Assembly: GCA_022708105.1 (NCBI GenBank)
Contig: JAKIZI010000002.1
Span: forward strand, 1-64,000
Length of the DNA stretch: 64,000 nucleotides
Origin: Bacteroidota bacterium
GTDB lineage: Bacteria > Bacteroidota > Bacteroidia > Bacteroidales > WCHB1-69
Direction: 5' to 3'
Shown: positions 2,947 through 54,210 of the stretch, one piece after another
Position numbering within the stretch: position 1 is the first letter of the stretch
Layout: every line of letters begins with the position of its first letter
Notes under the pieces: generated by a model
Database searches by the model: none
What the model was told of the DNA's origin: nothing
Seen by the model: the letters and a program-made list of their open reading frames with translations, nothing else
Translations under genes and position numbers: made by a program

Positions 2947-5397
2947 GTGAAATGGAATAAAATATTATGGAAAGAGGGACTTAAATCTTATGCACTATTG
3001 GTGGGATTGTTGTTGCTTTTTGTTTTAATATTGAAAGTAGGGGAGACGATTCGGCTGTTGATGACGATAGAAGTTGATTTTTTCCCGGTTATTGCGAATT
3101 CCTTTTTACAGGCACTGTGGTCGGTTATGTTGCCGGCACTTTCTTTATTTCCCGTTTTTATTTTAGGAAGGCGGTTTTCGGAGCGTGCAACCTACTTTTT
3201 ATTTGCTTTTTTGTGCGAATTATATCTCTTATTTGAAATATCATTGACCATCTATGCAATCAGAAGTGGTTTTTTGATGGGAAGTGAATTGATGGTACGC
3301 CCTTTTCATGAGAGTTGGATGACGATAGTTAGTGTGGTGCCCGGATGGTTGGTGTTCCTTTTTGCCGGAGTATCTGTTTTTGGGTTTTTAGCGACAGCGG
3401 CTTTCCTGCGGAAGAAACAGATAGGAAAAATTCTTTTAAGCGTGTTGGTGGGGGTCTCTGTTCTATCCCCTTTATTATTTGTATTGCGTCATTATACTGA
3501 ACAAAAGTATCAATTAAATCCGGCTGTGTATGCTTATATTTCGGGGAAATCATATCATTGTCTCTCTTCATGGGGTGAATACATGATGAAACCTGAGTTT
3601 GTGGTAAAGCAAGACAAAGAGTTGTTAATGCAATTTTTGGAAGAAAATCCAGGGTGGGCGGTGTCGGATATAGAATATCCTTTTGAACGAAAGGTGACGT
3701 CGGGGAGTGTCCTTGCTCCTTATTTTCGTGCTTCGGAGGAACGACCGAATGTGGTATTGGTCATTGTGGAGTCTTGGGGCGACAGTTGGTTCAGAGCCGG
3801 TTCCAATGGAGTGAGTTTTACCCCTTTTTTGGATTCGTTGTCGCGGCATTCACTGTATTGGAAGAATTGTTTGACTACGACTCCGCGTAGTTTTGGAGCA
3901 GTGCCTTCGATTACCGGATCTCTGCCGCACGGAGTTCAAGGTTTTCAGTTCGGAGAGATGCCCGATCACAATAGTTTAATCAAGATCTTGAAAAATAATG
4001 ATTATCGGATTAATGCCTTTTATGCCGGAGATTTTACTTTTGATGGAATTTATGAATATTTGGAGGCGCAAAAGACAGATTATTTCTCTCCCTTTTTTCA
4101 GGAAGCATGGAAAGATTTCAGTCCGGGGCGGGAGACGACTTATTGGGGCTATCAGGATGAGCCGTTTATTCGCAAAACACTTTCCGTATTGGAACAAGAA
4201 AAAACGGAACAACCTGTTTGTAATTTAGTGATAACTATTAGTGCACATGAAAATTTGTCATTGGTGAATAAACAAAAAGAGCAATTTTATAAAGCCAAAG
4301 CGCGACAATTGATTGAAAAGTTACCGATTGCAGCGCAGGCGACGGCAATGAAGAATTTGGATAAAATTGCATCCATTGTATATACGGATGATTGTTTGCG
4401 TTTGTTTATGAATCGTTATAGAGAAATCAGCGGTTATGAGCAGACTATTTTTGTATTTACGGGAGATCATGGTGGGGCTATTGAGGAGTCGAATAGTCTT
4501 GGTTATTTCCATGTTCCTTTGCTAATCTGGTCTCCTTTGCTGGAGCGTCCCAAAACATTTCCCGCGGTGGTTAGTCATTTGGATATTGCACCTTCAATTA
4601 CAGCATTGCTTGCGGAGAAGTATGGGCTTTTGCTGCCGGAGCAGGTGCATTTTGTGGGACAAGAACTTGATACGGCCCACCTGTTCCGCTCGCAGCAACG
4701 ACTTCTTTTTCTGCTCTATGCACGTCAAATTACCGATATGGTATATCAGAATTATTATGTAACAGATCAAAACCTTTATCGGATCAATGAAAATATGGAG
4801 ATGGAAAAACTCAATTCGAAAAATCTTCAACAAAAGATTCGTGAGATGAGAGATTTATATATTTATATGCATCAATATGTATATTTAAATGATAAATTGA
4901 CCAAAAATCCCCTTTACCCGAAAGCGTATTATCATTCGGTTTTGAATTATAAACCGCATGAGATTTTTACTTTTCAAAACCCACCGAACCCACCGAAAAA
5001 TATGAATGATGCGGTTCAATTTTATATTGTTGCGCCAACGTCGCTGCCAACTTCTCAAAATAAAAAAATTGAGAAAGTCCGAATTTCGGTTTCGGCAGAA
5101 GTGATGTATGAAGGTCGTGTTTTTCAGGATCAGTTCATGAGTTTGGTGTTGGAATGTCATGGGGAGAAGATGACTACTCCTACACAATATAAGGATAAAC
5201 TATCCAAGTTCTTTTTAAAAAACCGTTATACAGTTCATGAATGGGTGAAAATGAAAGTTGTAAAGGAGTTTGCTCTTGAGGGCAGTGAAAATACCACCTT
5301 TTCGGTTTCGTTACTGAGTACAGAAAAACAAGAGTTATGGGTAAAGGATCACAAAGTCTTTTTAAGGAATGTGTGCGTAGAAGTCACAGTTCTTTAG
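2947..5397 (+). CDS. LTA synthase-family membrane sulfatase/phosphoglycerol transferase
   Basis: Membrane-anchored alkaline-phosphatase-superfamily enzyme. About five N-terminal transmembrane segments fill residues 1-190, followed by an extracytoplasmic sulfatase domain from about residue 265. Metal and active-site elements are visible: NVVLVIVES with Glu275, the TTTPRS segment (residues 310-315) that should supply the nucleophilic Thr/Ser, and TGDHGG with Asp507/His508. Relatives (LtaS, MdoB/OpgB) transfer or hydrolyse glycerophosphate on glycolipids or glucans; the exact substrate is inferred only. The start is a GTG, chosen because it keeps the first membrane helix. About 200 residues at the C-terminus lie outside the catalytic domain. 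A paralogue lies tail-to-tail on the other strand. Confidence 0.85.
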   Translation: MKWNKILWKEGLKSYALLVGLLLLFVLILKVGETIRLLMTIEVDFFPVIANSFLQALWSVMLPALSLFPVFILGRRFSERATYFLFAFLCELYLLFEISLTIYAIRSGFLMGSELMVRPFHESWMTIVSVVPGWLVFLFAGVSVFGFLATAAFLRKKQIGKILLSVLVGVSVLSPLLFVLRHYTEQKYQLNPAVYAYISGKSYHCLSSWGEYMMKPEFVVKQDKELLMQFLEENPGWAVSDIEYPFERKVTSGSVLAPYFRASEERPNVVLVIVESWGDSWFRAGSNGVSFTPFLDSLSRHSLYWKNCLTTTPRSFGAVPSITGSLPHGVQGFQFGEMPDHNSLIKILKNNDYRINAFYAGDFTFDGIYEYLEAQKTDYFSPFFQEAWKDFSPGRETTYWGYQDEPFIRKTLSVLEQEKTEQPVCNLVITISAHENLSLVNKQKEQFYKAKARQLIEKLPIAAQATAMKNLDKIASIVYTDDCLRLFMNRYREISGYEQTIFVFTGDHGGAIEESNSLGYFHVPLLIWSPLLERPKTFPAVVSHLDIAPSITALLAEKYGLLLPEQVHFVGQELDTAHLFRSQQRLLFLLYARQITDMVYQNYYVTDQNLYRINENMEMEKLNSKNLQQKIREMRDLYIYMHQYVYLNDKLTKNPLYPKAYYHSVLNYKPHEIFTFQNPPNPPKNMNDAVQFYIVAPTSLPTSQNKKIEKVRISVSAEVMYEGRVFQDQFMSLVLECHGEKMTTPTQYKDKLSKFFLKNRYTVHEWVKMKVVKEFALEGSENTTFSVSLLSTEKQELWVKDHKVFLRNVCVEVTVL

Positions 5398-7835
5398 TAA
5401 ACTGCCTCTAATTTTACTTGTAAGTCGGCAATATAAAATGGTCGTTCCTCGGGATTATAGAGATAAATTTTAAGTTTATCCCCTTTTTGATAGTTATAAT
5501 TACTCTTTTTGAAAATATTTTTAAACGTAAAATATTCCCATTGATTATATTTGCCGTACCACATAGTGTTCAGCTCGTCAACCGAATAGTATGTTTGTTT
5601 CCCGTTTTTATTGACAATTTGCGTAACTATGCTGATTGGGGTTCTTCCATTATTTGTTTCAATAGAAGGAATAAAAAGATTGAATTGATAATGGGCAATA
5701 ATTGTAGGATCTTCATGGAGCGTGAATTCGAAAATAGACATCGGAAATTTATGTTTTTCAAAAAAGGAGGTCTCCTTTTTTCCATGAAAAGTTCCATTTT
5801 TCTGATTCGAGAGAGAACTATATTTGGTAATGGCTTCAGTAACACTATGGATAGTTAATAGTTCTGTGACCAAACGCACGTCGGAATTGAGCGGATTCTC
5901 AATCAAAACATCATTTTCTGCAACATATACATCCAAAATTTTATAAAGATTAAAGAGATTTGCAGCTTTCGGGTAGGATGTTTCTTGAAGCGAAAGATCT
6001 CCCTGATGTGAGCTTATTTTATACGTTTTATCTTGGTCAATAAAAAAGTCCTGATAGATACAATTTGCCATATTTTGCCCCACATCCATTTGAGGGCAGA
6101 ATGCCTGACTTCGAAAATGAGAAGAAGTATCTAATCCGTGACTGAGCCATGCTACTTTTTTGGGAGACTCGATATTATATTTATTTTTCATTAATGCGAG
6201 AAAAGTCGGAGTAATATCGCGATGAGAGACAATGGCAGGGAATTGGCGGGATTCTTTGAGCATAGGAGACCATATAATCAAAGGCACTTGATAGATCTCA
6301 AAAATGTTGGATTCCATATTAAAATTATGATCTCCGGTGATAATAAAAACCGTATTTTCAAATCCCGGCTTTTGTCGATAATCGTTTATTAATTGTCTTA
6401 AACTTTCATCTAAATAAAGAAAAGAGGCATAATATCGGTGAAATTTCGGTTCCATTTCTTTGGCTTTTCCGCATTTGATGAGTTGTTGTCTGTATCTTTC
6501 TGTGAGTTTTTCCGCATTTGGATATTGGAATGGATCGTGTGTAGAGAGAGTCAGGTAAATATCCAGTCGGGGTTTGGATTGGTTAAATTTTATATTCCGG
6601 ATGGCTTCGCGGAACAGGACGTGATCATACAATCCCCAGGAAGTGCGTTCAGAACTATTTTCATATTCTTTTTCATTCAAATAATGGTAGATATAATTGC
6701 GTTCTATGAAGTAAGACATGTTATCAAACCCGAGCCATCCTCCATGAAAGAAAGAGGCATCGTAGCCATTGTCAATTAAAATTTTGATGAGGGAGTGAAA
6801 TTCGGGAATATTGTTTTTATAATTCATGATTCCCCCTTTCCCGAAAGGTAATGCCCCAAAGATAGCAGGCAAAACACCAATGGTTCTATGCGAAACTGAA
6901 AAACAATGATTCCAGGAAAGTCCTGTTGAAGCTAATGAATCCAAGAAGGGCGTTGCGGAAGGTAGTCGGCTCCCGGATCCGCTGAATTCACGCCCGAGTC
7001 CTTCTACAATGATGAAAACAAAATTTGGCTTGCTTTTCTTTAAATCAAAATAGGTAGATAAGCGGTCTTCGGTTTCATCTTCGTGCAAAAAGGGATATCG
7101 AGGATCTGTAAATTTGATTTCCGGGAAAAATTTTTGAAATTCCATCGCTTTTTCTTCCATCTGGATTGGTTTGAATTGTTTCAATGAAATTCCCTTACGA
7201 ATACTGTTGAATAGGTACACATTCTTATTGACAACGGTAAAGTAAGTCTTTCGGGTTTCAAAGCGAGAGGAGGTTGCAGAGCCCACGAAAAAAGAAATAA
7301 TAAAAATTGCAGCACTAATAAATATGATTGATTTAGGAAAACGAATCTGTCGAGAGCTAAGAAAAATCAACGCGCCGGGAAAAAGGACAAAACCGCTATA
7401 CGCCCACCAAGGAGAAGGTTGAGAAGAGGAGACCGTTACTAAAAGTTCTTTGAAAGAATAGGCAAGGAAAATATTATCAAGCGGTACTCCGCTGACAGAA
7501 TAGTAGAGCATGGAAGCCAGGGAAACCCATATCATAAAAGTGCACCAAATCCATATAAAAAGATTTGCTCCTTTGTTTGAAAAATGAAAAATGAAGGCGT
7601 AAATTGGAAACAAGAGGAGACTAAAGCGAGAAAAATAGACGATATCAAATAAAAGTCCTATTCCATTGTTTCTTAGATGAACGGAAAATGAGCTCCCCAA
7701 TTCGTGTGTAAGCAACAAACTCTCAAAAAATCTTATGAGAATGGCAATACAAAGAAAGCAAAAGCAGAAATTTAGATAATTTAATAGAGAAGATTTAAGT
7801 TCTAGAAAATGAAGTTTAAAACGGCTGATTTTCAT
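5394..7835 (-). CDS. LTA synthase-family membrane sulfatase, second paralogue
   Basis: Same architecture as its convergent neighbour: about five membrane helices in the first 190 residues, then a periplasmic sulfatase domain. Glu278 (IIVEGLG) and Asp502/His503 (TGDHNF) mark the metal site, and the nucleophile probably lies in the SVSHRTIG segment. An ATG at 7835 is preferred to an in-frame TTG at 7853. With the ATG the protein is 813 aa and starts 10 nt after the upstream gene's stop. Last gene of a compact three-gene operon with a GH16-like and a GDPD-like lipoprotein, which suggests a phosphoglycerol-modified glycan as substrate (inference). Confidence 0.85.
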   Translation of the reverse strand: MKISRFKLHFLELKSSLLNYLNFCFCFLCIAILIRFFESLLLTHELGSSFSVHLRNNGIGLLFDIVYFSRFSLLLFPIYAFIFHFSNKGANLFIWIWCTFMIWVSLASMLYYSVSGVPLDNIFLAYSFKELLVTVSSSQPSPWWAYSGFVLFPGALIFLSSRQIRFPKSIIFISAAIFIISFFVGSATSSRFETRKTYFTVVNKNVYLFNSIRKGISLKQFKPIQMEEKAMEFQKFFPEIKFTDPRYPFLHEDETEDRLSTYFDLKKSKPNFVFIIVEGLGREFSGSGSRLPSATPFLDSLASTGLSWNHCFSVSHRTIGVLPAIFGALPFGKGGIMNYKNNIPEFHSLIKILIDNGYDASFFHGGWLGFDNMSYFIERNYIYHYLNEKEYENSSERTSWGLYDHVLFREAIRNIKFNQSKPRLDIYLTLSTHDPFQYPNAEKLTERYRQQLIKCGKAKEMEPKFHRYYASFLYLDESLRQLINDYRQKPGFENTVFIITGDHNFNMESNIFEIYQVPLIIWSPMLKESRQFPAIVSHRDITPTFLALMKNKYNIESPKKVAWLSHGLDTSSHFRSQAFCPQMDVGQNMANCIYQDFFIDQDKTYKISSHQGDLSLQETSYPKAANLFNLYKILDVYVAENDVLIENPLNSDVRLVTELLTIHSVTEAITKYSSLSNQKNGTFHGKKETSFFEKHKFPMSIFEFTLHEDPTIIAHYQFNLFIPSIETNNGRTPISIVTQIVNKNGKQTYYSVDELNTMWYGKYNQWEYFTFKNIFKKSNYNYQKGDKLKIYLYNPEERPFYIADLQVKLEAVY

Positions 7836-7845
7836 TTTGTACAGA

Positions 7846-9810
7846 TTATTCAATCACAATTTCATACACATGACCTTCAATATCCGTTTTGTTATAAGGA
7901 ATAAGTCCTTGTTCAAAAACAATAGGAGGCCACCATTCCGAGTAATGGTATTCTTGGGTAATGATACAAAGCATTTGGTTATTGGGAATAGAGGTATATT
8001 TATCGTTCATATATCCCACAACTTTCATTTGATTCGGAGTGGGCCCCAACCGCCAAATAATTTCATTGGGTTTCCACTCAATTTCGTAATAGTAGAACTC
8101 TTCTTTAAAAATATCGTTCGAAAATGGTGTTTTGATTGTCAGGGCTTTATAATATTCATACCATCGCATTGCATCATAGGTGGTCGTTTTATTATATGGA
8201 ATTTTATTAATACCTGCTGCGAATTTTTGTGGGTCATGAGAGGCCAAATCCCAATTGGTACAGCAATACATTACTTCATTATTCTTCTTTTCATCTCGAT
8301 ATTTGGGTTTTGGATTTTCTTCTCCCCAATAATACATTTCAGGCCAATAAGGGGAAGTTTTTACGATTTCTATATCGATTTCTGAATAGTAATTATAGGG
8401 ATGTAACTTCGGGTTCTGAGATTCATCATCTTTGGCTACATATCCTTTTGGAGAATAACGACGGTTGTTCCACGGGTGACTGTCTTGATAAATCAACCAA
8501 AAAGCGTATGTTAATCCATTCCAAATATTCTCCTCATTGAGCATCACGGGAAATTTGATTTTTCCTCTATATTTTCCGTATGTAAAACCCACCCGAGTTC
8601 TGATGCCGGTGGATTCTTTTTTAAGATTTTGGAGATTATCATTACCGGGATTGATAAGACTTATATAATCTTTATTAGGAGATACTTGAACCGTTTTGCA
8701 CGGACAATCTGAAACAACTGGATAATCATATTTTAATTGTGTAGAGTCAAAAAGGGTTGCATTGTGCAGATATTCTTCTAAAGTATAAGGATTAATATCG
8801 CTAACTACATCTCGAATGACAGGAATATTACGTAATGAATATTGTTTACTTACGGAGCTCAAAAATTGCTGAAAGAGTGCGTTTTGATATAACGTAGTGT
8901 CAACACCGCAAAATTCGGAAGGGGAAATTTCGTATTGATTGGTTTTCAATGTAAGTTCATCAACAAAAACCCCTTGTTGGGGAGTGATAACAGCTCTTGT
9001 TTTTAGAATACGCTTACTTATAACGGAATATATGCCTTTCTGTTTGTTTTCGGAGAACCATTGGTAGGGATTTACAAACTTTTTTTCGGAATTTTTTAAT
9101 CCAATATATTGGATGTAGTCAGGAATTTTCTTCAGGGCTTCTTCTTCGCAAATCACTAATAAAAAAGAGTAACAGCCGGCACGGGGATTTCGTTTCCAAC
9201 GATGATTATAAGAACCTTCATTTTTTCGTTCTTTAAGAATCCAAGTTGCATCTAAATAGATCAATTTCTGAAGAGAAACATTTCGCTTTTGCGATTTTTC
9301 TATTAAAAAATTATACCAATCAGGACTATTTTTAATTTCTTGGATAATTGCATCTATGTTTTCTTGGGTAAATATGGAACAGGAGAGATCTGCACCATAA
9401 TATATTTTTTCATCTCTCGGATTGCCGACAATTCGAAAAGAATCAATATTGAGGCCGCGAAGGGGAACGGGTTTAAATCCAATCTCTGCCTCTTCCCAAC
9501 TTCCGTAAAAATTTTCGTAGGAAAGGGAATCTTTTTCGTCAAATTTGTAACTTTCATTTTGATAGTAAATCTTATAGAAATATTTTTTTTCCGAATCTCC
9601 CAAGAAATCAAATGAAAATTTAAACATTCCGGAAGGGGTTTGACGAAATGATGGAATGACAATGCCGTCTGTAACCACTTGTTCTAAATCCATATCCAAA
9701 AAAACAGTGTCTCCTTCAGGAAAGTTGCTCATCGGATCAAAAGTTACTTTGTGGCATGATGAAAATAGAGTCAAAATAATGATACTTAAACCAAAAAGAT
9801 AATATTTCAT
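7846..9810 (-). CDS. Lipoprotein with C-terminal GH16-like (laminarinase-type) domain
   Basis: Surface or periplasmic lipoprotein of 654 aa when started at the ATG at 9810; a TTG 12 bp upstream is less likely. The signal peptide ends in LFSSC with Cys at about residue 19. The N-terminal two thirds is not recognised. The C-terminal third resembles family 16 glycoside hydrolases: EIDIE (Glu477, Asp479, Glu481) fits the catalytic ExDxE pattern, and a YYYEIEWKPNEIIWRLG strand pair follows, as in beta-glucanases. Activity on a beta-glucan or related polymer is an inference. It starts 1 nt after the GDPD-like gene, so translation is probably coupled. Confidence 0.7.
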   Translation of the reverse strand: MKYYLFGLSIIILTLFSSCHKVTFDPMSNFPEGDTVFLDMDLEQVVTDGIVIPSFRQTPSGMFKFSFDFLGDSEKKYFYKIYYQNESYKFDEKDSLSYENFYGSWEEAEIGFKPVPLRGLNIDSFRIVGNPRDEKIYYGADLSCSIFTQENIDAIIQEIKNSPDWYNFLIEKSQKRNVSLQKLIYLDATWILKERKNEGSYNHRWKRNPRAGCYSFLLVICEEEALKKIPDYIQYIGLKNSEKKFVNPYQWFSENKQKGIYSVISKRILKTRAVITPQQGVFVDELTLKTNQYEISPSEFCGVDTTLYQNALFQQFLSSVSKQYSLRNIPVIRDVVSDINPYTLEEYLHNATLFDSTQLKYDYPVVSDCPCKTVQVSPNKDYISLINPGNDNLQNLKKESTGIRTRVGFTYGKYRGKIKFPVMLNEENIWNGLTYAFWLIYQDSHPWNNRRYSPKGYVAKDDESQNPKLHPYNYYSEIDIEIVKTSPYWPEMYYWGEENPKPKYRDEKKNNEVMYCCTNWDLASHDPQKFAAGINKIPYNKTTTYDAMRWYEYYKALTIKTPFSNDIFKEEFYYYEIEWKPNEIIWRLGPTPNQMKVVGYMNDKYTSIPNNQMLCIITQEYHYSEWWPPIVFEQGLIPYNKTDIEGHVYEIVIE

Positions 9811-9811
9811 A

Positions 9812-10564
9812 CTAATATTCAATAAGATTGCTATAATCTACCAACACGGCTTGTACGGATTTTTCTCTGCACAATTTTTGGGTAAAGGCAACGTTTTCGG
9901 GGGTAAAATCAGCAGGAGTATGCCAGAAAAAAATATGTTGATCCGAAAAATAATCGGTTAAGACAGGGTACATTCGGTATTCACAACTCAATCCGTCTGG
10001 CTTCAGCTTATCAACCAAGTTTTTTGTATTTTGATACCATGAAGTAGTATCCATTTGTGGATTGTAATAAAAATTATCCACCCATAAGAGTACTTGAAAA
10101 TCATACTCTTTAACAATTTTGAGGGCATCAGCAGACGGATTTTCCACCCATAATCGATCTTTAATATGATATTTTCGTGCAATATATTTCAATCGATGTG
10201 CAAGTTGAGTAGCATTATCTACAGATAAATTCTTTATGTCTAACCAATAATAGGTGTCTTTTCGTTGTGCTTTTGATAGTTTTTTCAACCAATCAGAGAA
10301 AAGAACATTTTTGGTAGTATCAGGGGTGTCATGTCCTACAAATAATCGATCTTGGTATTCTGAAAAGATTAAATCGACTTCCAATCCCATAAATTTCGAC
10401 TGTTTTTCTGCAACTTCCTCAAGATTATTCACACGATGAGCCCAGACTTTCGGAAATTGATGGCGCTTATCCTGATTCAATTCATCTTTTGGAGTACAAT
10501 TCTGAAAAATTATAATAGAGAAAATAAATATTAATCGAAAAATAATATTTTTACTTTTGGGCAT
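9812..10564 (-). CDS. GDPD-like phosphodiesterase lipoprotein
   Basis: Probable lipoprotein (hydrophobic leader ending FQNC, Cys23) with a PLC-like phosphodiesterase TIM-barrel pattern. The family triad is recognisable: His43-Arg44 in WAHRVNN, Glu62/Asp64 in GLEVDL, and His78-Asp79 in VGHD. Glycerophosphodiester phosphodiesterases cleave glycerol phosphate from diesters. The HRVN variant of the usual HRG also occurs in menorin/FAM151-like relatives, so the substrate may differ. First gene of the operon with the GH16-like and LtaS-like genes. A TATTTTTG promoter element lies 25 bp upstream. Confidence 0.65.
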   Translation of the reverse strand: MPKSKNIIFRLIFIFSIIIFQNCTPKDELNQDKRHQFPKVWAHRVNNLEEVAEKQSKFMGLEVDLIFSEYQDRLFVGHDTPDTTKNVLFSDWLKKLSKAQRKDTYYWLDIKNLSVDNATQLAHRLKYIARKYHIKDRLWVENPSADALKIVKEYDFQVLLWVDNFYYNPQMDTTSWYQNTKNLVDKLKPDGLSCEYRMYPVLTDYFSDQHIFFWHTPADFTPENVAFTQKLCREKSVQAVLVDYSNLIEY

Positions 10565-11331: not shown

Positions 11332-11766
11332 TTAGTCGTCGTATTTTACAAAATTATATTTATAATCAAAGATTAATTCAATTTTGTTTTTTAATTTAAC
11401 TTCGTAGTTACGTCTGTCTTTTTCAATCTTTATGATAGTTAGATCCTTATGATAGGTCTTTACATAATTCAGAATCTCTGAAGGAATAGCGCTATCGGGA
11501 ACATTTCCGTATTTGCAGTCGATGTTGGTCCATTCCCCGTTGGAATTGAATTCAATTTTATCCCCATTGACGAAAATAACATCATAGTTTTTGTCCGTGA
11601 GGTCCATATCCTGTTTAGCGATAGAAATCTGGAGATTGGAAAAATGTTGTTTGATAAATTGTTGCGCTTTTTGAGGCAACTGTTCAAAGGTGACAGGCCG
11701 ATCATTGGATGCGTTTAAAGACATGCTTATCGCGAAGATAACTGTCATGAATAATACTTTTTTCAT
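11332..11766 (-). CDS. PepSY-like (DUF2874-type) secreted protein
   Basis: Secreted 144-aa protein with a signal peptide (cleavage near LNAS, about residue 19) and two PepSY-like repeats. Each repeat runs from an LPxKAxxFIxxHF helix to a paired beta-hairpin containing VxFxxGxxIEFNxxGEW. The protein below (11797-12240) is a clear paralogue with the same repeat order. This family is periplasmic in Bacteroidota; its ligand is not established. The pair sits downstream of a two-component system, where such proteins are often found, but a regulatory link here is inference. Confidence 0.75.
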   Translation of the reverse strand: MKKVLFMTVIFAISMSLNASNDRPVTFEQLPQKAQQFIKQHFSNLQISIAKQDMDLTDKNYDVIFVNGDKIEFNSNGEWTNIDCKYGNVPDSAIPSEILNYVKTYHKDLTIIKIEKDRRNYEVKLKNKIELIFDYKYNFVKYDD

Positions 11767-11796
11767 AATTCAATTATTTTATTGTTTTTAATTTGA

Positions 11797-12240
11797 TTAA
11801 TTATCATATCCGATAATCCTAAAATCACTTCCAAATGTGATTTCCAATTGATTATCTAATTTAATGTCGTAATGTTTGCGTTCATGTTCAATTTTAATAA
11901 CATATTGACCCGGATGTTGTCGGGTTACGTGATCGTTAATTTCTTGCGGGATGAGTGCGAGGGGGACGGCATTTGTTTTACAATCAATTTCTTCCCACTC
12001 ACCTTTTTTGGAAAATTTCAACTCTGTTCCATTGCTAAATACAACTTCATAAGAGGTACAGCATAAAAAACCTTCTTGAAGAACATAAGATATTTCCAGG
12101 TCTGAAAAATGAAGATTTACAGTTTCTTTGGCTTTTTCGGGAAGTTCTGAAAAATTAACAAGTTTATCTTCAAACTCTTTTTGACAGCTTTGCAGACTGA
12201 AACTAAACAAAACTAATGTGATGATGGCGATTTTTTTCAT
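11797..12240 (-). CDS. PepSY-like (DUF2874-type) lipoprotein
   Basis: Lipoprotein of 147 aa with lipobox LQSC (Cys19) followed by two PepSY-like repeats (LPEKAKETVNLHF...; IPQEINDHVTRQHP...). It differs from its downstream paralogue by having a lipid anchor rather than a cleaved signal, and a CC pair near residue 60. The genes are 30 bp apart and presumably co-transcribed from the promoter element at 12286-12293. Function unknown; binding of a small ligand or peptide is only suggested by the PepSY fold. Confidence 0.75.
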   Translation of the reverse strand: MKKIAIITLVLFSFSLQSCQKEFEDKLVNFSELPEKAKETVNLHFSDLEISYVLQEGFLCCTSYEVVFSNGTELKFSKKGEWEEIDCKTNAVPLALIPQEINDHVTRQHPGQYVIKIEHERKHYDIKLDNQLEITFGSDFRIIGYDN

Positions 12241-12285
12241 GTTGCTTTAATTTTAATTATAAATAATTATACTCTTTTTTTAAAG

Positions 12286-12293
12286 CAAAAATA
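12286..12293 (-). promoter_or_regulatory. Bacteroidota -7 promoter element (TATTTTTG)
   Basis: TATTTTTG on the minus strand, 45 bp before the PepSY lipoprotein start. It separates the PepSY pair transcriptionally from the histidine kinase gene upstream. Confidence 0.5.
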
Positions 12294-12358
12294 AAATGTA
12301 AATCTGAAAAGAAAATGAAATGCGAAATAAAAGAGAATGATCCGATTAGAACTAAAAT

Positions 12359-13645
12359 CTATTTTATAGAAGATGTCGAAAAATGTAATTCAAAACAGTG
12401 TTTCTCATTACGAAACTCATATTGATGTTGGATATGATACATTCTGCAAATGGCATCTACAACGGCAAGCCCAAGTCCTGTACTTCCTTCTTTTTTACCT
12501 CCCTGATAAAAACGTTCAAAAATTTTATCCGGATCAAGAGATTCATTATTTCCGTTATTTTTAATGGTAAGAGAATTTGCATCAATCCGGATCTCAATTT
12601 TTCCGGAAGGAATGTTATGCACGAACGCATTTTTAAGAAGATTATTGATTAACGTCAGTGCCAAGTCCGGGTTCATTTCAGTAAAAAGCTTTGCTGATTC
12701 TTGAATATCAATCTCAATATTGAGATAGGAATATGCGGATGAGAAATCTTCTAATTGTTTTTTAATTAATGAATTAAAATCAATACGACTTACTTCCGGA
12801 AATTGTTCATTATCAATTTTGGAGATAAAGAGCAAGGCTTTGTTGAGTTTGACAATATGGGAGAGTGTTTGTTGCGTTTTTACAATCTCGGCCATTTGAG
12901 CTTCGGTTAGCGTAGGATCGTTCAAAAGGAGTTCAAGCCGATTAATACAAATTGCGAGAGGGGTTTGGATTTCGTGTGATGCGTTCCCGATAAACTGTTT
13001 TTGATGTTCGAAAGCATACTCGGCGCGTTCGGCATAGCGTACGGCTGCTTCGTTAATTTTTTTAAATTCGGTAATATTCGTTTGATTATCCAATGGTTTA
13101 TTTTTTCCCCCGATGCGATAATGATCCAACCATCGAAGCAGGACGTGAAGCGGTTTCAAACTTCGATAGTAAATTAAAATATTGACCAGTAAAATGGTAG
13201 CCAACAATATTGCATACAAAATGACAATCCAAATCAGAATAGATTCTCTTAGGTCCGCTTTTTCAATAGTTGGAGTAAAAACATCCAGTTTGTAATAGTC
13301 TTCATTTTCATCTTTAAAAATAGTTTGTAAAAAACGGGCCGGTTCCATCTCATTTTTTTCTTCAATGAAGATCATGGTATCTGCATAATGGATATGGCTA
13401 AAAAGGTGTTCTGTTTGTTCTAATTTTACAATGGAATAGAAATTATTGCTGCCGTCATTTTCAGTAGGAAGAGGTTCTCCGGCAAGCGTTTTGATGATTA
13501 GTTGTTCTGCATAGAGTTCAAGGGCATCGTCAACTTCATCATTAATTTCATCAATAATGGCATAATAAAAGAAAAGTGCCCATGCAGTAAAAACAACCAA
13601 TAATATGGTCGAGAGTTGCAAGGAAATTTTAGATATCAGTTTCAT
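12359..13645 (-). CDS. Two-component sensor histidine kinase
   Basis: Inner-membrane kinase of 428 aa. Two membrane helices (about 10-30 and 136-160) bracket a periplasmic sensor of about 105 residues. A short linker leads to the HisKA domain with phosphoacceptor His224 in GNASHEIQTP. The ATPase domain has an N-box (NNLLKNAF) and G-box (GLGLAVVD). The sensor domain is not recognised. It follows its response regulator by 12 bp. The downstream PepSY proteins may act in the same periplasmic pathway (inference). Confidence 0.9.
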   Translation of the reverse strand: MKLISKISLQLSTILLVVFTAWALFFYYAIIDEINDEVDDALELYAEQLIIKTLAGEPLPTENDGSNNFYSIVKLEQTEHLFSHIHYADTMIFIEEKNEMEPARFLQTIFKDENEDYYKLDVFTPTIEKADLRESILIWIVILYAILLATILLVNILIYYRSLKPLHVLLRWLDHYRIGGKNKPLDNQTNITEFKKINEAAVRYAERAEYAFEHQKQFIGNASHEIQTPLAICINRLELLLNDPTLTEAQMAEIVKTQQTLSHIVKLNKALLFISKIDNEQFPEVSRIDFNSLIKKQLEDFSSAYSYLNIEIDIQESAKLFTEMNPDLALTLINNLLKNAFVHNIPSGKIEIRIDANSLTIKNNGNNESLDPDKIFERFYQGGKKEGSTGLGLAVVDAICRMYHIQHQYEFRNEKHCFELHFSTSSIK

Positions 13646-13657
13646 AGCAAAAATTGA

Positions 13658-14335
13658 TTATTCTTGAACCATTTTATATCCAAAACCGTAAATCGCTTTT
13701 ATTTCAGCGGTTGCGTTTGCTTCTTTTAATTTTTTTCTTAAATTCTTAATTTGTGCATAGATAAAATCAAAATTATCGGTTTGGTCAATATGATCGCCCC
13801 AAACAGCTTCTGCAAGAGCTTCTTTGCCGATAAGATAGTCAGGCCTGGATATAAAAAAGAAAAGAATGTCATACTCTTTTCGACTCAATTCGAGGGGAAT
13901 ATTATCCACGAACACTTGATTTTGCTCCGGAATAATTTTGACATTGCCGTATTCCATAGCCATTGCACCGAAATGTTGATTTCTCCGGATAACACTTTTA
14001 ATACGGGCGGACAATTCTGCCAAATGGAATGGTTTTGCCAAATAGTCATCCGCTCCCAATTCCAATCCGAGAACTTTATCATCAATAGAATCTTTTGCAG
14101 AGATAATAATGACACTATCTTTTTTCTGTTGTTCTTTGAGAAACTTCAAAAGAGCGAGTCCGGTTCCGTCAGGCAGCATAATATCCAATAAAATACAATC
14201 ATAATCGTATATAGAAATTTTTTGCATGGCATTGCGAAAATTCTCAGCAACCTCTACCACATACCTTTCTTTTTCGAGTGTGCGCTGCATTAATTCCCTT
14301 AAAGAGGGCTCATCTTCAATGATTAATATTTTCAT
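13658..14335 (-). CDS. OmpR/PhoB-type response regulator
   Basis: DNA-binding regulator of 225 aa. The receiver domain (1-120) has the acidic pair Glu7/Asp8, phosphoacceptor Asp51 (LLDIMLPDG) and the DYLAKPF switch lysine. A winged-helix Trans_Reg_C domain follows (about 128-223) with LSRKEYDIL and the YGFGYKM hairpin. It overlaps the stop of the upstream TerB-DnaJ gene by 4 bp and is followed by the cognate kinase, so the three are translationally linked. Confidence 0.93.
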   Translation of the reverse strand: MKILIIEDEPSLRELMQRTLEKERYVVEVAENFRNAMQKISIYDYDCILLDIMLPDGTGLALLKFLKEQQKKDSVIIISAKDSIDDKVLGLELGADDYLAKPFHLAELSARIKSVIRRNQHFGAMAMEYGNVKIIPEQNQVFVDNIPLELSRKEYDILFFFISRPDYLIGKEALAEAVWGDHIDQTDNFDFIYAQIKNLRKKLKEANATAEIKAIYGFGYKMVQE

Positions 14336-35115: not shown

Positions 35116-35147
35116 CAAAAATATAAAAAAAAGTTGCATTTCACAAA
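35116..35147 (-). promoter_or_regulatory. Bacteroidota promoter, TTTG-N20-TATTTTTG
   Basis: On the minus strand a -33 TTTG (35144-35147) and a -7 TATTTTTG (35116-35123) are separated by 20 bp, close to the Bacteroides consensus. It lies inside the last codons of birA and fixes the downstream gene's start at 35075. Confidence 0.7.
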
Positions 35148-50995: not shown

Positions 50996-52147
50996 ATGAA
51001 AAAAATACTTACCATTTTGTCAGTTGTGTTTTTAACAGCAACACTTTGGGCACAAAGCCCTGAAAAAATGAGTTATCAAGCAGTCATTCGAGATGCAAAT
51101 GGGAATCTTCTGTCCAACCATTCGATTGGGATGCAACTTAGCATCTTACAAGGTAGTCCAAGCGGCACTGCAGTTTACATCGAAAGACAATCTCCAAGCA
51201 CTAATGCCAATGGATTGGTAACTTTAGAAATAGGAAACGGGACAGTGGTGTCGGGCGATTTTACTACCATCGACTGGGCAAACGGCCCTTATTTTCTGAA
51301 ATCCGAAACAGATCTTAACGGCGGGGCAACATACACTATTGCAGGAACAAGTCAGCTATTAAGTGTACCCTATGCTTTACATGCAAAAACGGCGGAAACG
51401 CTTACAGGTGGCATTACCGAAACCGACCCCAGCGTACCCACAGGAACCCAATCTGGACAAATGCAATATTGGAACGGCACAGCATGGGTAACTGTTGCAG
51501 CTACCGCAAACGAAGGAGCAACGCTACAAATGATTGGAGGCGTGCCTACATGGGTAGGCGGAGCACCTCCTCCACAAAATGTTACCAACCCCACCACCGG
51601 TGAAATTTGGATGGACCGTAACCTTGGCGCCTCACAAGTGGCAATAAGTAGCACCGATGCCCTTGCTTATGGCGATTTGTACCAGTGGGGACGTGCAGCA
51701 GACGGTCACGAAAGCCGTACATCGGGTACAACATCTACATTGGCAACAAGCGATACCCCCGGGCATGGCTATTTTATAACCAGTATCAGTTTCCCTGACG
51801 ATTGGCGCAACCCGCAAAACGACAACCTTTGGCAGGGTGTAAGCGGCATCAACAATCCTTGCCCAAGTGGTTACCGCATACCAACCAGAGCCGAATGGGA
51901 AGCCGAGCTTGCAAGTTGGAGTAGCAACAATGCAGCCGGAGCTTTTGCCTCTCCGCTTAAGTTGCCCGTGCCCGGCGGCCGAGACGACAGCAATGGCGTG
52001 CTCAGCAGTGCGGGTACCAACGCCTACTATTGGTCGAGTACGGTAGATGGTACCAGCGTCATACTCCTGTGCTTCAACAGTAGCAATGCCAATATGATCA
52101 GCTACGGCCGTGGATACGGCTTATCTGTCCGCTGCATTAAGGATTAG
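50996..52147 (+). CDS. FISUMP-domain surface protein, copy 1 (candidate DGR target)
   Basis: 383-aa secreted protein. Signal peptide (MKKILTILSVVFLTAT, cleavage near LWAQS); N-terminal conserved region (about 20-180) including SYQAVIRDANGN and SQLLSVPYALHAK; then a Fibrobacter-major-paralogue (FISUMP) C-type-lectin-like domain from GEIWMDRNLG (about 200) to VRCIKD at the end. Repeated blocks NPCPSGYRIPT, WSSNNAAGAFASPLKLP and YYWSSTVDGT are conserved; the residues between vary against copy 2. Codon-level comparison suggests diversification by a retroelement. The ribosome-binding site is AAGGAGG. Confidence 0.85.
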   Translation: MKKILTILSVVFLTATLWAQSPEKMSYQAVIRDANGNLLSNHSIGMQLSILQGSPSGTAVYIERQSPSTNANGLVTLEIGNGTVVSGDFTTIDWANGPYFLKSETDLNGGATYTIAGTSQLLSVPYALHAKTAETLTGGITETDPSVPTGTQSGQMQYWNGTAWVTVAATANEGATLQMIGGVPTWVGGAPPPQNVTNPTTGEIWMDRNLGASQVAISSTDALAYGDLYQWGRAADGHESRTSGTTSTLATSDTPGHGYFITSISFPDDWRNPQNDNLWQGVSGINNPCPSGYRIPTRAEWEAELASWSSNNAAGAFASPLKLPVPGGRDDSNGVLSSAGTNAYYWSSTVDGTSVILLCFNSSNANMISYGRGYGLSVRCIKD

Positions 52148-52265: not shown

Positions 52266-53461
52266 TACAGAAGTAAAAACATTTAAAGTAATAAAAAATT
52301 AAGGAGGATTGTTCAATGAAAAAAATAATTACCATTTTATCAGTTGTGTTTTTAACAGCAACACTTTGGGCACAAAGCCCCGAACAAATGAGTTATCAAG
52401 CAGTAATTCGAGAAGCAAACGGGAATTTTCTGTCCAATCATTCGATTGGGATGCAACTTAGCATCTTACAAGGTAGTCCAAGCGGCACTGCAGTTTACAT
52501 CGAAAGACAATCTCCAAGTACTAATACCAATGGATTGGTAACTTTAGAAATAGGAAACGGGATAGTGGTGTCGGGCGATTTTACCACCATCGACTGGGCA
52601 AACGGCCCTTATTTCCTGAAATCCGAAACAGATCTTAACGGCGGGGAAACATATACTATTGCAGGAACAAGTCAGCTATTAAGTGTACCGTATGCTTTAC
52701 ATTCAAAAACGGCGGAAACGGTTACAGGTGGCATTACCGAAACCGACCCCAGCGTACCCACAGGAACCCAATCTGGGGAAATGCAATATTGGAACGGCAC
52801 AGCATGGGTAACTGTTGCAGCTACCGCAAACGAAGGAGCAACTCTACAAATGATTGGAGGCGTGCCTACATGGGTAGGCGGAGCACCTCCTCCACAAAAT
52901 GTTACCAACCCCACTACTGGTGAAATTTGGATGGACCGTAACCTTGGCGCCTTACAAGTGGCAACAAGTAGCACCGATGCAAGCTCTTACGGCAACTTGT
53001 ACCAGTGGGGGCGTGCAGCAGACGGTCACGAAAGCCGTACATCGGGTACAACATCTACATTGGCAACAAGCGATACACCCGGACATGGCGATTTTATAAC
53101 CAATAGAAGTAGCCCTTACGATTGGCGCAACCCGCAAAACGACAACCTTTGGCAGGGTGTAAGCGGCATCAACAATCCTTGTCCAAGTGGTTACCGCATA
53201 CCAACCTCAGCCGAATGGGAAGCCGAGCGTACAAGTTGGAGTAGCAACGATGCAGCCGGAGCTTTTGCCTCTCCGCTTAAGTTGCCCATGGCCGGCTGGC
53301 GTAGCCCCATCGATGGCACGATCACTTATGTGGACAGCCGCTATTGGTCGAGTACGGTATATAGTACCCTCGCCGGTAAGCTAATCTTCAACAGTAGCAA
53401 TTCCTTCGTGAGCACCGAAGGCCGTGTAGCTGGCTTTTCTGTTCGTTGCATTAAAGATTAG
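52266..53461 (+). repeat. Second unit of a tandem duplication (1320-bp offset)
   Basis: Positions 52266-52317 repeat 50946-50997, including the last codons of the T9SS gene (EVKTFKVIKN), its stop and the AAGGAGG site. The FISUMP copies then align at a constant 1320-bp offset until about 53280. This shows a tandem duplication whose left junction lies inside the upstream gene. Confidence 0.85.
52316..53461 (+). CDS. FISUMP-domain surface protein, copy 2 (candidate DGR target)
   Basis: 381-aa paralogue of the preceding gene, nearly identical over the first 200 residues. It diverges at scattered positions in the C-terminal FISUMP domain: AFASPLKLPMAGWRSPIDG and YWSSTVYSTLAGKLIF against different residues in copy 1. 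The final VRCIKD is shared. Two codons are lacking near the YYW segment. Its domain should adopt the C-type-lectin-like fold used for ligand binding. Confidence 0.85.
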   Translation: MKKIITILSVVFLTATLWAQSPEQMSYQAVIREANGNFLSNHSIGMQLSILQGSPSGTAVYIERQSPSTNTNGLVTLEIGNGIVVSGDFTTIDWANGPYFLKSETDLNGGETYTIAGTSQLLSVPYALHSKTAETVTGGITETDPSVPTGTQSGEMQYWNGTAWVTVAATANEGATLQMIGGVPTWVGGAPPPQNVTNPTTGEIWMDRNLGALQVATSSTDASSYGNLYQWGRAADGHESRTSGTTSTLATSDTPGHGDFITNRSSPYDWRNPQNDNLWQGVSGINNPCPSGYRIPTSAEWEAERTSWSSNDAAGAFASPLKLPMAGWRSPIDGTITYVDSRYWSSTVYSTLAGKLIFNSSNSFVSTEGRVAGFSVRCIKD

Positions 53462-53643: not shown

Positions 53644-54210
53644 ATGGCAAAGAGCAGCACCCGCAGAGTCTCATTCTATATCAACGGCAAGGAAATCGAA
53701 GCATCGGTCAAACAAGTCCGTGCCGAAATGAACCGCCTTGTCAACGAACAAAACAAAATGGTCATCGGCAGCGACGAATATGTCGCCCACGCCAAGAAAA
53801 TTCGTGAACTCCGATCAATTCTCAAAGAACACACCCAAGAAATAGGTAATGCCAAATCCCAATGGCAAGAACTATACGATAAAGTCATGCAATTCGGCAT
53901 GGGAGTTGGTGGATTTACTCAAATTTTTGAGATGGCTGACAATGCCATTTCAACCCTAAAACAACTGGCTACCGACCTTGCCGAGATGGACGATATCTAT
54001 AGCGACGTAATGAAGACAACGGGCTTCACTCATGAACAAGTCGAAGAACTCAATAAGAGCTTCAAAGCAATGGATACACGCACTTCAAGGGAACAACTGA
54101 ACAACCTTGCTTACATTGCCGGAAAACTCGGGCTAAATACAAAAGAACTAGTTACGCAGTTTGTAGAAGCGGCTGACGTGATCAATGTTTCTATGGGAAA
54201 ATATTTATAG
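53644..54210 (+). pseudogene. Phage tail tape-measure protein, N-terminal fragment
   Basis: 188 codons encode the start of a tail-length tape-measure protein: charged coiled region (residues 15-65) and then TGFTHEQVEELNKSFKAMDT and EQLNNLAYIAGKLGLNTKEL, which are typical of the phage tape-measure core. A stop follows VSMGKYL where intact proteins continue for hundreds of residues. It has a normal start. It is probably a prophage remnant brought in with the island. Confidence 0.75.

Follow-up and report, generated by a model that had tools for sequence, protein, structure and literature searches.

A gene trio encoding a GDPD-fold lipoprotein, a GH16-type lipoprotein and an LtaS-like membrane enzyme, a candidate envelope glycan-modifying module in a Bacteroidota bacterium

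The DNA examined here, called the window below, is a stretch of 64,000 nucleotides (positions 1 to 64,000 of contig JAKIZI010000002.1) from a Bacteroidota bacterium of the WCHB1-69 lineage of Bacteroidales, whose assembly (GCA_022708105.1) comprises 2.0 Mb in 274 contigs and is 76% complete. A compact run of three genes lies on its minus strand. In the order of reading, they encode a menorin-like lipoprotein with the fold of glycerophosphodiesterases (GDPD), a putative phosphodiesterase (9812..10564, 250 amino acids), a GH16-type lipoprotein (7846..9810, 654 amino acids, ATG at 9810) and a predicted LtaS/OpgB-type head-group transferase of the alkaline-phosphatase superfamily (5394..7835, 813 amino acids, ATG at 7835). 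The original prediction took these genes for one operon whose products could build and trim a phosphoglycerol-modified glycan. Open reading frame (ORF) calls confirm the spacers it gave, 1 nt and then 10 nt, and the three enzyme classes and the operon are borne out by folds, family matches and gene order. By reading of the sequence, both putative lipoproteins start with a hydrophobic stretch followed by Cys (IIIFQNC in the GDPD-like and LTLFSSC in the GH16-like protein).

A TIM-barrel GDPD fold of the first protein is confirmed by its AlphaFold2 (AF2) model, built from four sequences with a predicted local distance difference test (pLDDT) score of 79.4. In a Foldseek search with this model, GDPDs and a GDPD-type phosphodiesterase filled the top 12 rows, led by 3no3 (E 4.2e-08), and VIA-align matched it to 2o55 with Z 18.2 and 3.2 Å over 200 residues. 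In 44 aligned members of the GDPD-like family, D109 and E141 are invariant (44/44 each), followed by K111 (43/44), E62 and H78 (41/44 each), H43 (40/44) and D64 (39/44), the misses including gaps from cut rows. The GDPD catalytic set, i.e. a His pair, ExD with a further metal acid and Lys, is present in this alignment; the columns are given these roles by analogy with GDPDs in general, not by superposition. Neither the GDPD-like nor the GH16-like protein had a PDB match when searched as a single sequence. Of two PDB profile searches, one (A1) returned partial-length matches to sorting nexin 25 (best E 2.6e-04), an aldolase and a regulator, which we judged to be chance, and the other (A2) returned nothing. 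A Pfam match of the GDPD-like protein to DpnII-MboI (E 0.0085, under the cut-off) was also taken as chance.

The Pfam model nearest to the GDPD-like family is Menorin (PF10223, curated cut-off 25 bits). A search of 324 order genomes gave only two Menorin matches at E up to 0.001; both are GDPD-like family members, one over the cut-off (G565, 26.1 bits) and one with 21.9 bits (G113). Other members stay under 25 bits (L074_13 22.5, L087_4 19.4, L086_4 13.8). According to the available part of PMC6965129, Menorin/FAM151 proteins belong to the GDPD/PLC-like phosphodiesterase superfamily and have no known substrate in animals. The window protein resembles them in superfamily; unlike them, it was left unmatched by the PF10223 model in the Pfam scan. 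Relatives of the window protein were found at four named loci, three of them in Bacteroidales metagenome-assembled genomes; the fourth, from Clostridium, aligned over 30 residues only.

The second protein consists of an N-terminal region without Pfam match, a helical repeat and a C-terminal GH16 domain. Its match to PF00722 reaches 12 bits (E 0.15; cut-off 22 bits), while the same-genus orthologue L071_2, 71% identical, scores 27.9 bits and passes. Relatives score 17.7 (L181_12) and 15.7 bits (L182_5), and no PF00722 match was obtained for the GH16-like proteins of L101, L102, L103, L104 and L105. Alignment by hhalign to canonical GH16 is weak (37 columns, probability 55%). The active-site motif is present: SEIDIE at residues 476-481 (8368..8385, minus strand) is of the EXDXE type without beta-bulge, and [ST]EID[IF]E is found in 30/30 ORFs of relatives, which represent 29 different genes, window included. 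The typing of GH16 by EXDXE versus EXDXXE motifs follows the part of PMC6827312 available to us.

A repeat of about 50 residues, detected by an iterated hidden Markov model (HMM) and helical by the look of its sequence, occupies residues 147-198 of the GH16-like protein (9217..9372, minus strand). Its pattern, resembling EWxxxIxxKAxxxNxSLExxLxxDAxW, recurs at the loci L148, L150, L181, L182, L103, L236, L243 and L102 besides the window. GH16-like lipoproteins carry one copy and AlgX-like proteins one to four, C-terminal where inspected; one PMT-like protein (L102_6) has it as well. In the members scanned the repeat is without Pfam match. It may serve for docking within a single complex that modifies glycans.

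In the third protein the PF00884 catalytic domain (E 4.9e-36, residues 270-549) lies behind N-terminal membrane helices, predicted from hydropathy peaks at 24-42, 58-76, 89-107 and 170-188, which is the layout of LtaS/OpgB-type enzymes. The best PDB relative is VP1736 (3lxq, E 1.7e-21), followed by sulfatase chains and then LtaS chains (6.5e-07 and weaker). NCBIfam models rank LtaS, arylsulfatase, OpgB, YejM, choline-sulfatase, all far under their cut-offs. A C-terminal extension, from about residue 575 to 813 (5397..6113, minus strand), is present in a long subfamily of LtaS-like proteins. A second LtaS-like gene (2947..5397, plus strand, 816 amino acids), absent from the original prediction, stands tail to tail with the trio, and the 3' ends of the two genes overlap by 4 nt. 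In an alignment of 33 LtaS-like proteins the predicted nucleophile of the trio copy is Thr318 (codon 6882..6884, minus strand), a role that we presume by analogy. The surrounding region reads HRTIGVLPA in the trio copy and PRSFGAVPS, with Ser at this position, in the second copy. Formylglycine (FGly) sulfatases bear the signature C/S-x-P-x-R, which is found in neither copy in this alignment. Because the trio copy has Thr at the nucleophile position and lacks the signature, action on sulfate esters, which would have spoken against the original prediction, is disfavoured, though weak sulfatase matches exist. The trio enzyme would likely be an LtaS/OpgB-type transferase of phosphoglycerol.

At five loci where a GDPD-like gene is present too (L072, L076, L077, L078 and L079), the LtaS-like genes score higher with the second copy; those of L071 and L074 score higher with the trio copy. 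A tail-to-tail pair of LtaS-like paralogues is also seen in G035 (L085, 10344-16075), where the contig continues for about 240 bases past the second gene before it ends. Upstream of the second LtaS-like gene of the window, on the same strand, are genes for an ABC transporter ATPase (1144-2028) and permease (2070-2870). That these form a conserved unit with the LtaS-like gene is unsupported, a BLAST search with the permease (window_3) having no match in the fetched loci.

Next, we fetched the neighbourhoods of GDPD-like genes and labelled their genes by HMMs built here from few seeds, the labels being checked against Pfam in some members only. At 22 of 44 loci with a GDPD-like ORF (E < 1e-20), a gene of the LtaS superfamily lies within 5 kb. 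In 17 cases the two share a strand, in four they are opposite and in one they are fused (L087_4). By a hand estimate from four PF00884 places in 2.02 Mb, chance linkage would amount to about 2-3% per locus. Eight GDPD-like ORFs with E above 1e-20 had been dropped before this count, among which only L157_7, a piece beside L157_8, has an LtaS-like gene at a distance of up to 5 kb. Short pieces at G049:C201 and G001:C17 were also dropped, as were G476 and G364, which lay outside the set of fetched neighbourhoods. On a tree of the 44 GDPD-like proteins the linkage label needs 7 changes versus 14.9 when shuffled (0/500 shuffles as low), so linkage falls into clusters, swelled by near-copies, and is seen on either side of the tree. 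In G049:C201 (L080, 9426-9518), a GDPD-like piece of 31 residues with 61% identity adjoins an LtaS-like gene and may be the remnant of a partner since lost, or else reflect a broken frame.

Eight of the 22 linked partners were chosen for a scan against family models. Five are CptA-type phosphoethanolamine transferases (L153, L173, L166, L086 and L087); all are below curated cut-offs and are therefore not to be called resistance genes. Two (L077 and L174) match LtaS, phosphoglycerol transferase I and sulfatase models and one (L150) sulfatase models only.

Fusions link parts that the window keeps as separate genes. In L087_4, a single protein of 767 amino acids, PF00884 (242-516) is followed by a menorin-like stretch (560-633). 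An OafA-like acyltransferase is fused to an LtaS-like domain in L162_8 and L163_3 (Pfam) and in L092_6 and L092_4 (HMMs built here), while in L146_6 and L149_3 its fusion partner is a GDPD-like domain. A GDPD-like barrel (7-236) and GH16 (245-478) are combined in 7ww4, a solved chain named beta-1,3(4)-glucanase, for which we found no publication.

Gene neighbourhoods of the relatives point to glycans. Near long LtaS-like genes (L072, L076, L082, L091, L094, L149), genes for GT2, PMT-like, DUF2079 and GH5-like lipoprotein products occur in varied sets, with Pfam scores partly under the cut-off (in L076, 17.9/26.1 bits for PMT_2 and 22/23.5 for Cellulase; the GH5-like protein of L149 passes with 27.6/23.5). 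Of 29 stretches round GH16-like genes, 12 contain MBOAT or AlgX-like genes and five an LtaS-like gene, window and L071 included. In G561 the order is GDPD, OafA-like, LtaS-like and then, convergent, AlgX-like, MBOAT and GH16-like, and in G837 (L154) AlgX-like, MBOAT, GDPD-like, LtaS-like and OafA-like genes stand together. An MBOAT gene is also present at G000:C201, where no gene of the fetched stretch is labelled AlgX-like. Gene sets such as those of G561 and G837 are expected round periplasmic polysaccharide-modifying enzymes, and the envelope glycan role put forward originally is supported by the GT2, PMT-like, GH5-like, OafA-like, MBOAT and AlgX neighbours of the relatives.

Conservation of the whole trio is narrow. 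The same three-gene order is found in G001, a genome of the same genus, with 2-nt and 1-nt spacers and protein identities of 58, 71 and 51%; as an operon the trio was seen only there and in the window. Among the 148 genomes searched (own included), GDPD-like matches occur in 16, GH16-like in 12 (seven at E < 1e-50) and LtaS-like in 114. In wider samples, 35/393 genomes of the order and 8/395 of the phylum have a GDPD-like match, and 39/393 order genomes, apparently the same 393, have a strong GH16-like one (E < 1e-100, nearly all full length). Three genomes clearly hold both genes (G000, G561 and G662), and in 3/3 the two lie within 8 kb. Left out of this co-occurrence were G545, whose GDPD match reaches only 4.6e-4, and G775, whose GH16 match is a fragment at a contig end.

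Taken together, we propose that the trio is a periplasmic or surface module that adds and removes phospho-substituents of one envelope glycan and trims it, a reading to which we assign a probability of about 0.57. The LtaS/OpgB-type membrane enzyme would transfer a phospholipid head group to the glycan, most likely phosphoglycerol from phosphatidylglycerol. The GDPD-fold lipoprotein would hydrolyse the resulting phosphodiester and so remove the substituent or set its density. The GH16-type lipoprotein would cut the glycan backbone or transglycosylate it; this chain is probably beta-glucan-like or beta-galactan-like. We infer the reactions, head group, glycan and order of steps from what is observed, namely gene order, folds and families, active-site residues, association and fusion.

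Several observations weigh against this proposal. Neither the GH16-like nor the GDPD-like protein of the window passes a curated model, the latter having no Pfam match over a cut-off, none to the GDPD family PF03009 at E up to 1, and no NCBIfam match. The structure model of the GH16-like protein, from two sequences, reached pLDDT 30 and was excluded from fold searches. The LtaS-like enzyme stays under the equivalog cut-offs of LtaS (50.6/970 bits) and OpgB (32.3/574 bits) and is also matched, weakly, by arylsulfatase and choline-sulfatase models and by sulfatase chains. Half of the GDPD-like loci (22/44) have no LtaS-like gene within 5 kb; nine of these lie at most 5 kb from a locus end, and in L072, among those nine, and in L076 an LtaS-like gene is 5.5 kb away. 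GH16-like and GDPD-like genes co-occur in three genomes (four with one weak match) versus about 3.5 expected, and in G545 and G775 the matches to them fall on separate contigs. Among the ORFs and Pfam matches next to the window trio we recognised no glycosyltransferase or O-acetyltransferase, and a one-protein search of the own genome, 76% complete and without positive control, found no PMT-like enzyme. Finally, GlpQ-type GDPDs do not cut glycerol-1-phosphate (Gro1P) ends derived from phosphatidylglycerol, according to the portion of PMC7086022 that is available; the GDPD-like protein of the window would therefore need another specificity.

Phosphoglycerol, the group originally predicted, is likely rather than proven, since CptA-type phosphoethanolamine transferases also occur as partners of homologous GDPDs. 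The same module might instead carry phosphoethanolamine, with a transferase of OpgE/CptA/BcsG type and a GDPD-fold protein removing or editing this group. Five of the eight partners scanned are CptA-type, one of them (L087) fused to a GDPD-like domain, and a GDPD adjoins OpgE in Shewanella vesiculosa HM13 in the accessible part of PMC6971210. The window enzyme itself, however, matches LtaS, OpgB, YejM and sulfatase models, with no EptA/CptA model matched (E up to 1), its PDB matches (E up to 0.1) include neither EptA nor MCR chains, and we regard phosphoethanolamine in the window as rather unlikely. A different assignment would make the trio a catabolic or scavenging set, in which GH16 and GDPD degrade foreign phospho-glycans such as teichoic acid or exopolysaccharide and the LtaS-like protein is a phosphodiesterase or sulfatase. 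GH16 laminarinases and GDPDs are often catabolic, 7ww4, which joins both domains, is named a glucanase, and the weak sulfatase matches of the LtaS-like protein, to models and chains, would fit. Such a set is nevertheless improbable, given that GDPD-like genes accompany membrane transferases (GT2, PMT-like, MBOAT, OafA-like) and that a reading of the genes next to the trio, with no search made, revealed nothing SusC/SusD-like.

The acceptor could also be a lipid, for example in synthesis of phosphoglycerol dihydroceramide, with the GDPD trimming lipid head groups. Porphyromonas gingivalis is reported to make phosphoglycerol dihydroceramide, and VIA-align places the GDPD-like model on sphingomyelinase D-like enzymes too, at lower Z. 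Since a lipid acceptor leaves the GH16-like gene unexplained, along with the GH5-like and glycosyltransferase genes of relatives, we find it very improbable. Still slighter is the chance that the genes are mere neighbours, i.e. an LtaS/GDPD pair into which a GH16 gene was inserted without common function. GH16-like genes elsewhere are indeed mostly without the pair, as the 5/29 stretches with an LtaS-like gene tell, and genome-level co-occurrence of GH16-like and GDPD-like genes is not above expectation. Against mere chance, the tight order is kept in G001, the two genes share the same 8 kb in G561 and G662, and one solved chain unites GDPD-like and GH16 domains. Co-occurrence at the level expected from independence (3.5) does mean that GDPD-like genes are not generally accompanied by a GH16-like one. 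The enzyme classes, the operon and the glycan role of the original prediction are supported, while the trio, the wide conservation of which was to be checked, was found as an operon in the window and G001 only.

As a proposed module modifying an envelope glycan, the trio invites comparison with Gram-positive LtaS and GlpQ. Gram-positive LtaS is a phosphoglycerol polymerase and, like the trio, it is joined by a glycerophosphodiesterase acting on envelope polymers. The window differs in its Gram-negative setting and in the glycosidase, and GlpQ does not cut ends of lipoteichoic acid (LTA) type (PMC7086022, as far as available). The closest known systems are the biosynthesis of osmoregulated periplasmic glucans (OPG) and phosphoethanolamine cellulose. 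The OPG system (OpgB, OpgE, OpgC, OpgG/D) likewise combines head-group transfer to a periplasmic glucan with the transfer of succinyl groups and with a family of glycoside hydrolases, and its OpgB takes the head group from a phospholipid (PMC3818809, PMC10514313, both in their accessible parts, the former for OpgB). In contrast, the hydrolase of the window is GH16-like (GH5-like in relatives), the relatives have acyltransferases of MBOAT/AlgX/OafA-like kind, and a GDPD-fold protein joins the set. Phosphoethanolamine cellulose (BcsG, BcsZ) similarly involves head-group transfer to a glucan and a cellulase needed for secretion, BcsZ, which cuts its chain as the GH16-type protein would (PMC11379886, in the part available), while no BcsA-type synthase was recognised beside the trio and the glycosidase family is different. 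Pairing of a GDPD with a head-group transferase has a precedent in the P49 cluster of Shewanella vesiculosa HM13, where the GDPD gene HM3345 adjoins OpgE HM3344. The accessible part of that source (PMC6971210) names no GH16, and the likeness of the Shewanella GDPD is one of annotation, not of sequence comparison. We found no report of an LtaS/GDPD/GH16 set in Bacteroidota among the titles and abstract starts listed from the open-access literature.

Elsewhere in the window, tandem PepSY-like proteins (11332-14335) adjoin an apparent histidine kinase and response regulator, the latter two assigned by reading. Two near-identical tandem secreted proteins of about 380 amino acids (50996-52147 and 52316-53461) differ mostly near the C-terminal end. 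By reading, an ORF of 188 amino acids (53644-54210) resembles the beginning of a tape-measure protein of a phage tail and is perhaps a prophage remnant. A Bacteroidales-type promoter pattern has one match in the window (35116-35147) versus a chance mean of 3.36.

If the proposed module is real, Bacteroidales would own a phospho-substituted envelope glycan, parallel to the OPGs and phosphoethanolamine cellulose of Proteobacteria and provided with a built-in removal enzyme. This would be unusual surface chemistry for Bacteroidales-type bacteria, and such glycans would be findable by genome. Menorin, which in animals is linked to dendrite branching and retinal function, would gain a bacterial relative with a searchable substrate. 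A bolder idea, which we consider improbable, is that the menorin-like GDPD branch is a dedicated editor or eraser for alkaline-phosphatase-superfamily head-group transferases acting on envelope glycans, with phosphoglycerol as well as phosphoethanolamine. Glycosylphosphatidylinositol (GPI) phosphoethanolamine transferases are related to these head-group transferases. Were the idea true, animal menorin/FAM151 may act on phosphodiester-substituted glycans, e.g. those arising from GPI phosphoethanolamine transferases.

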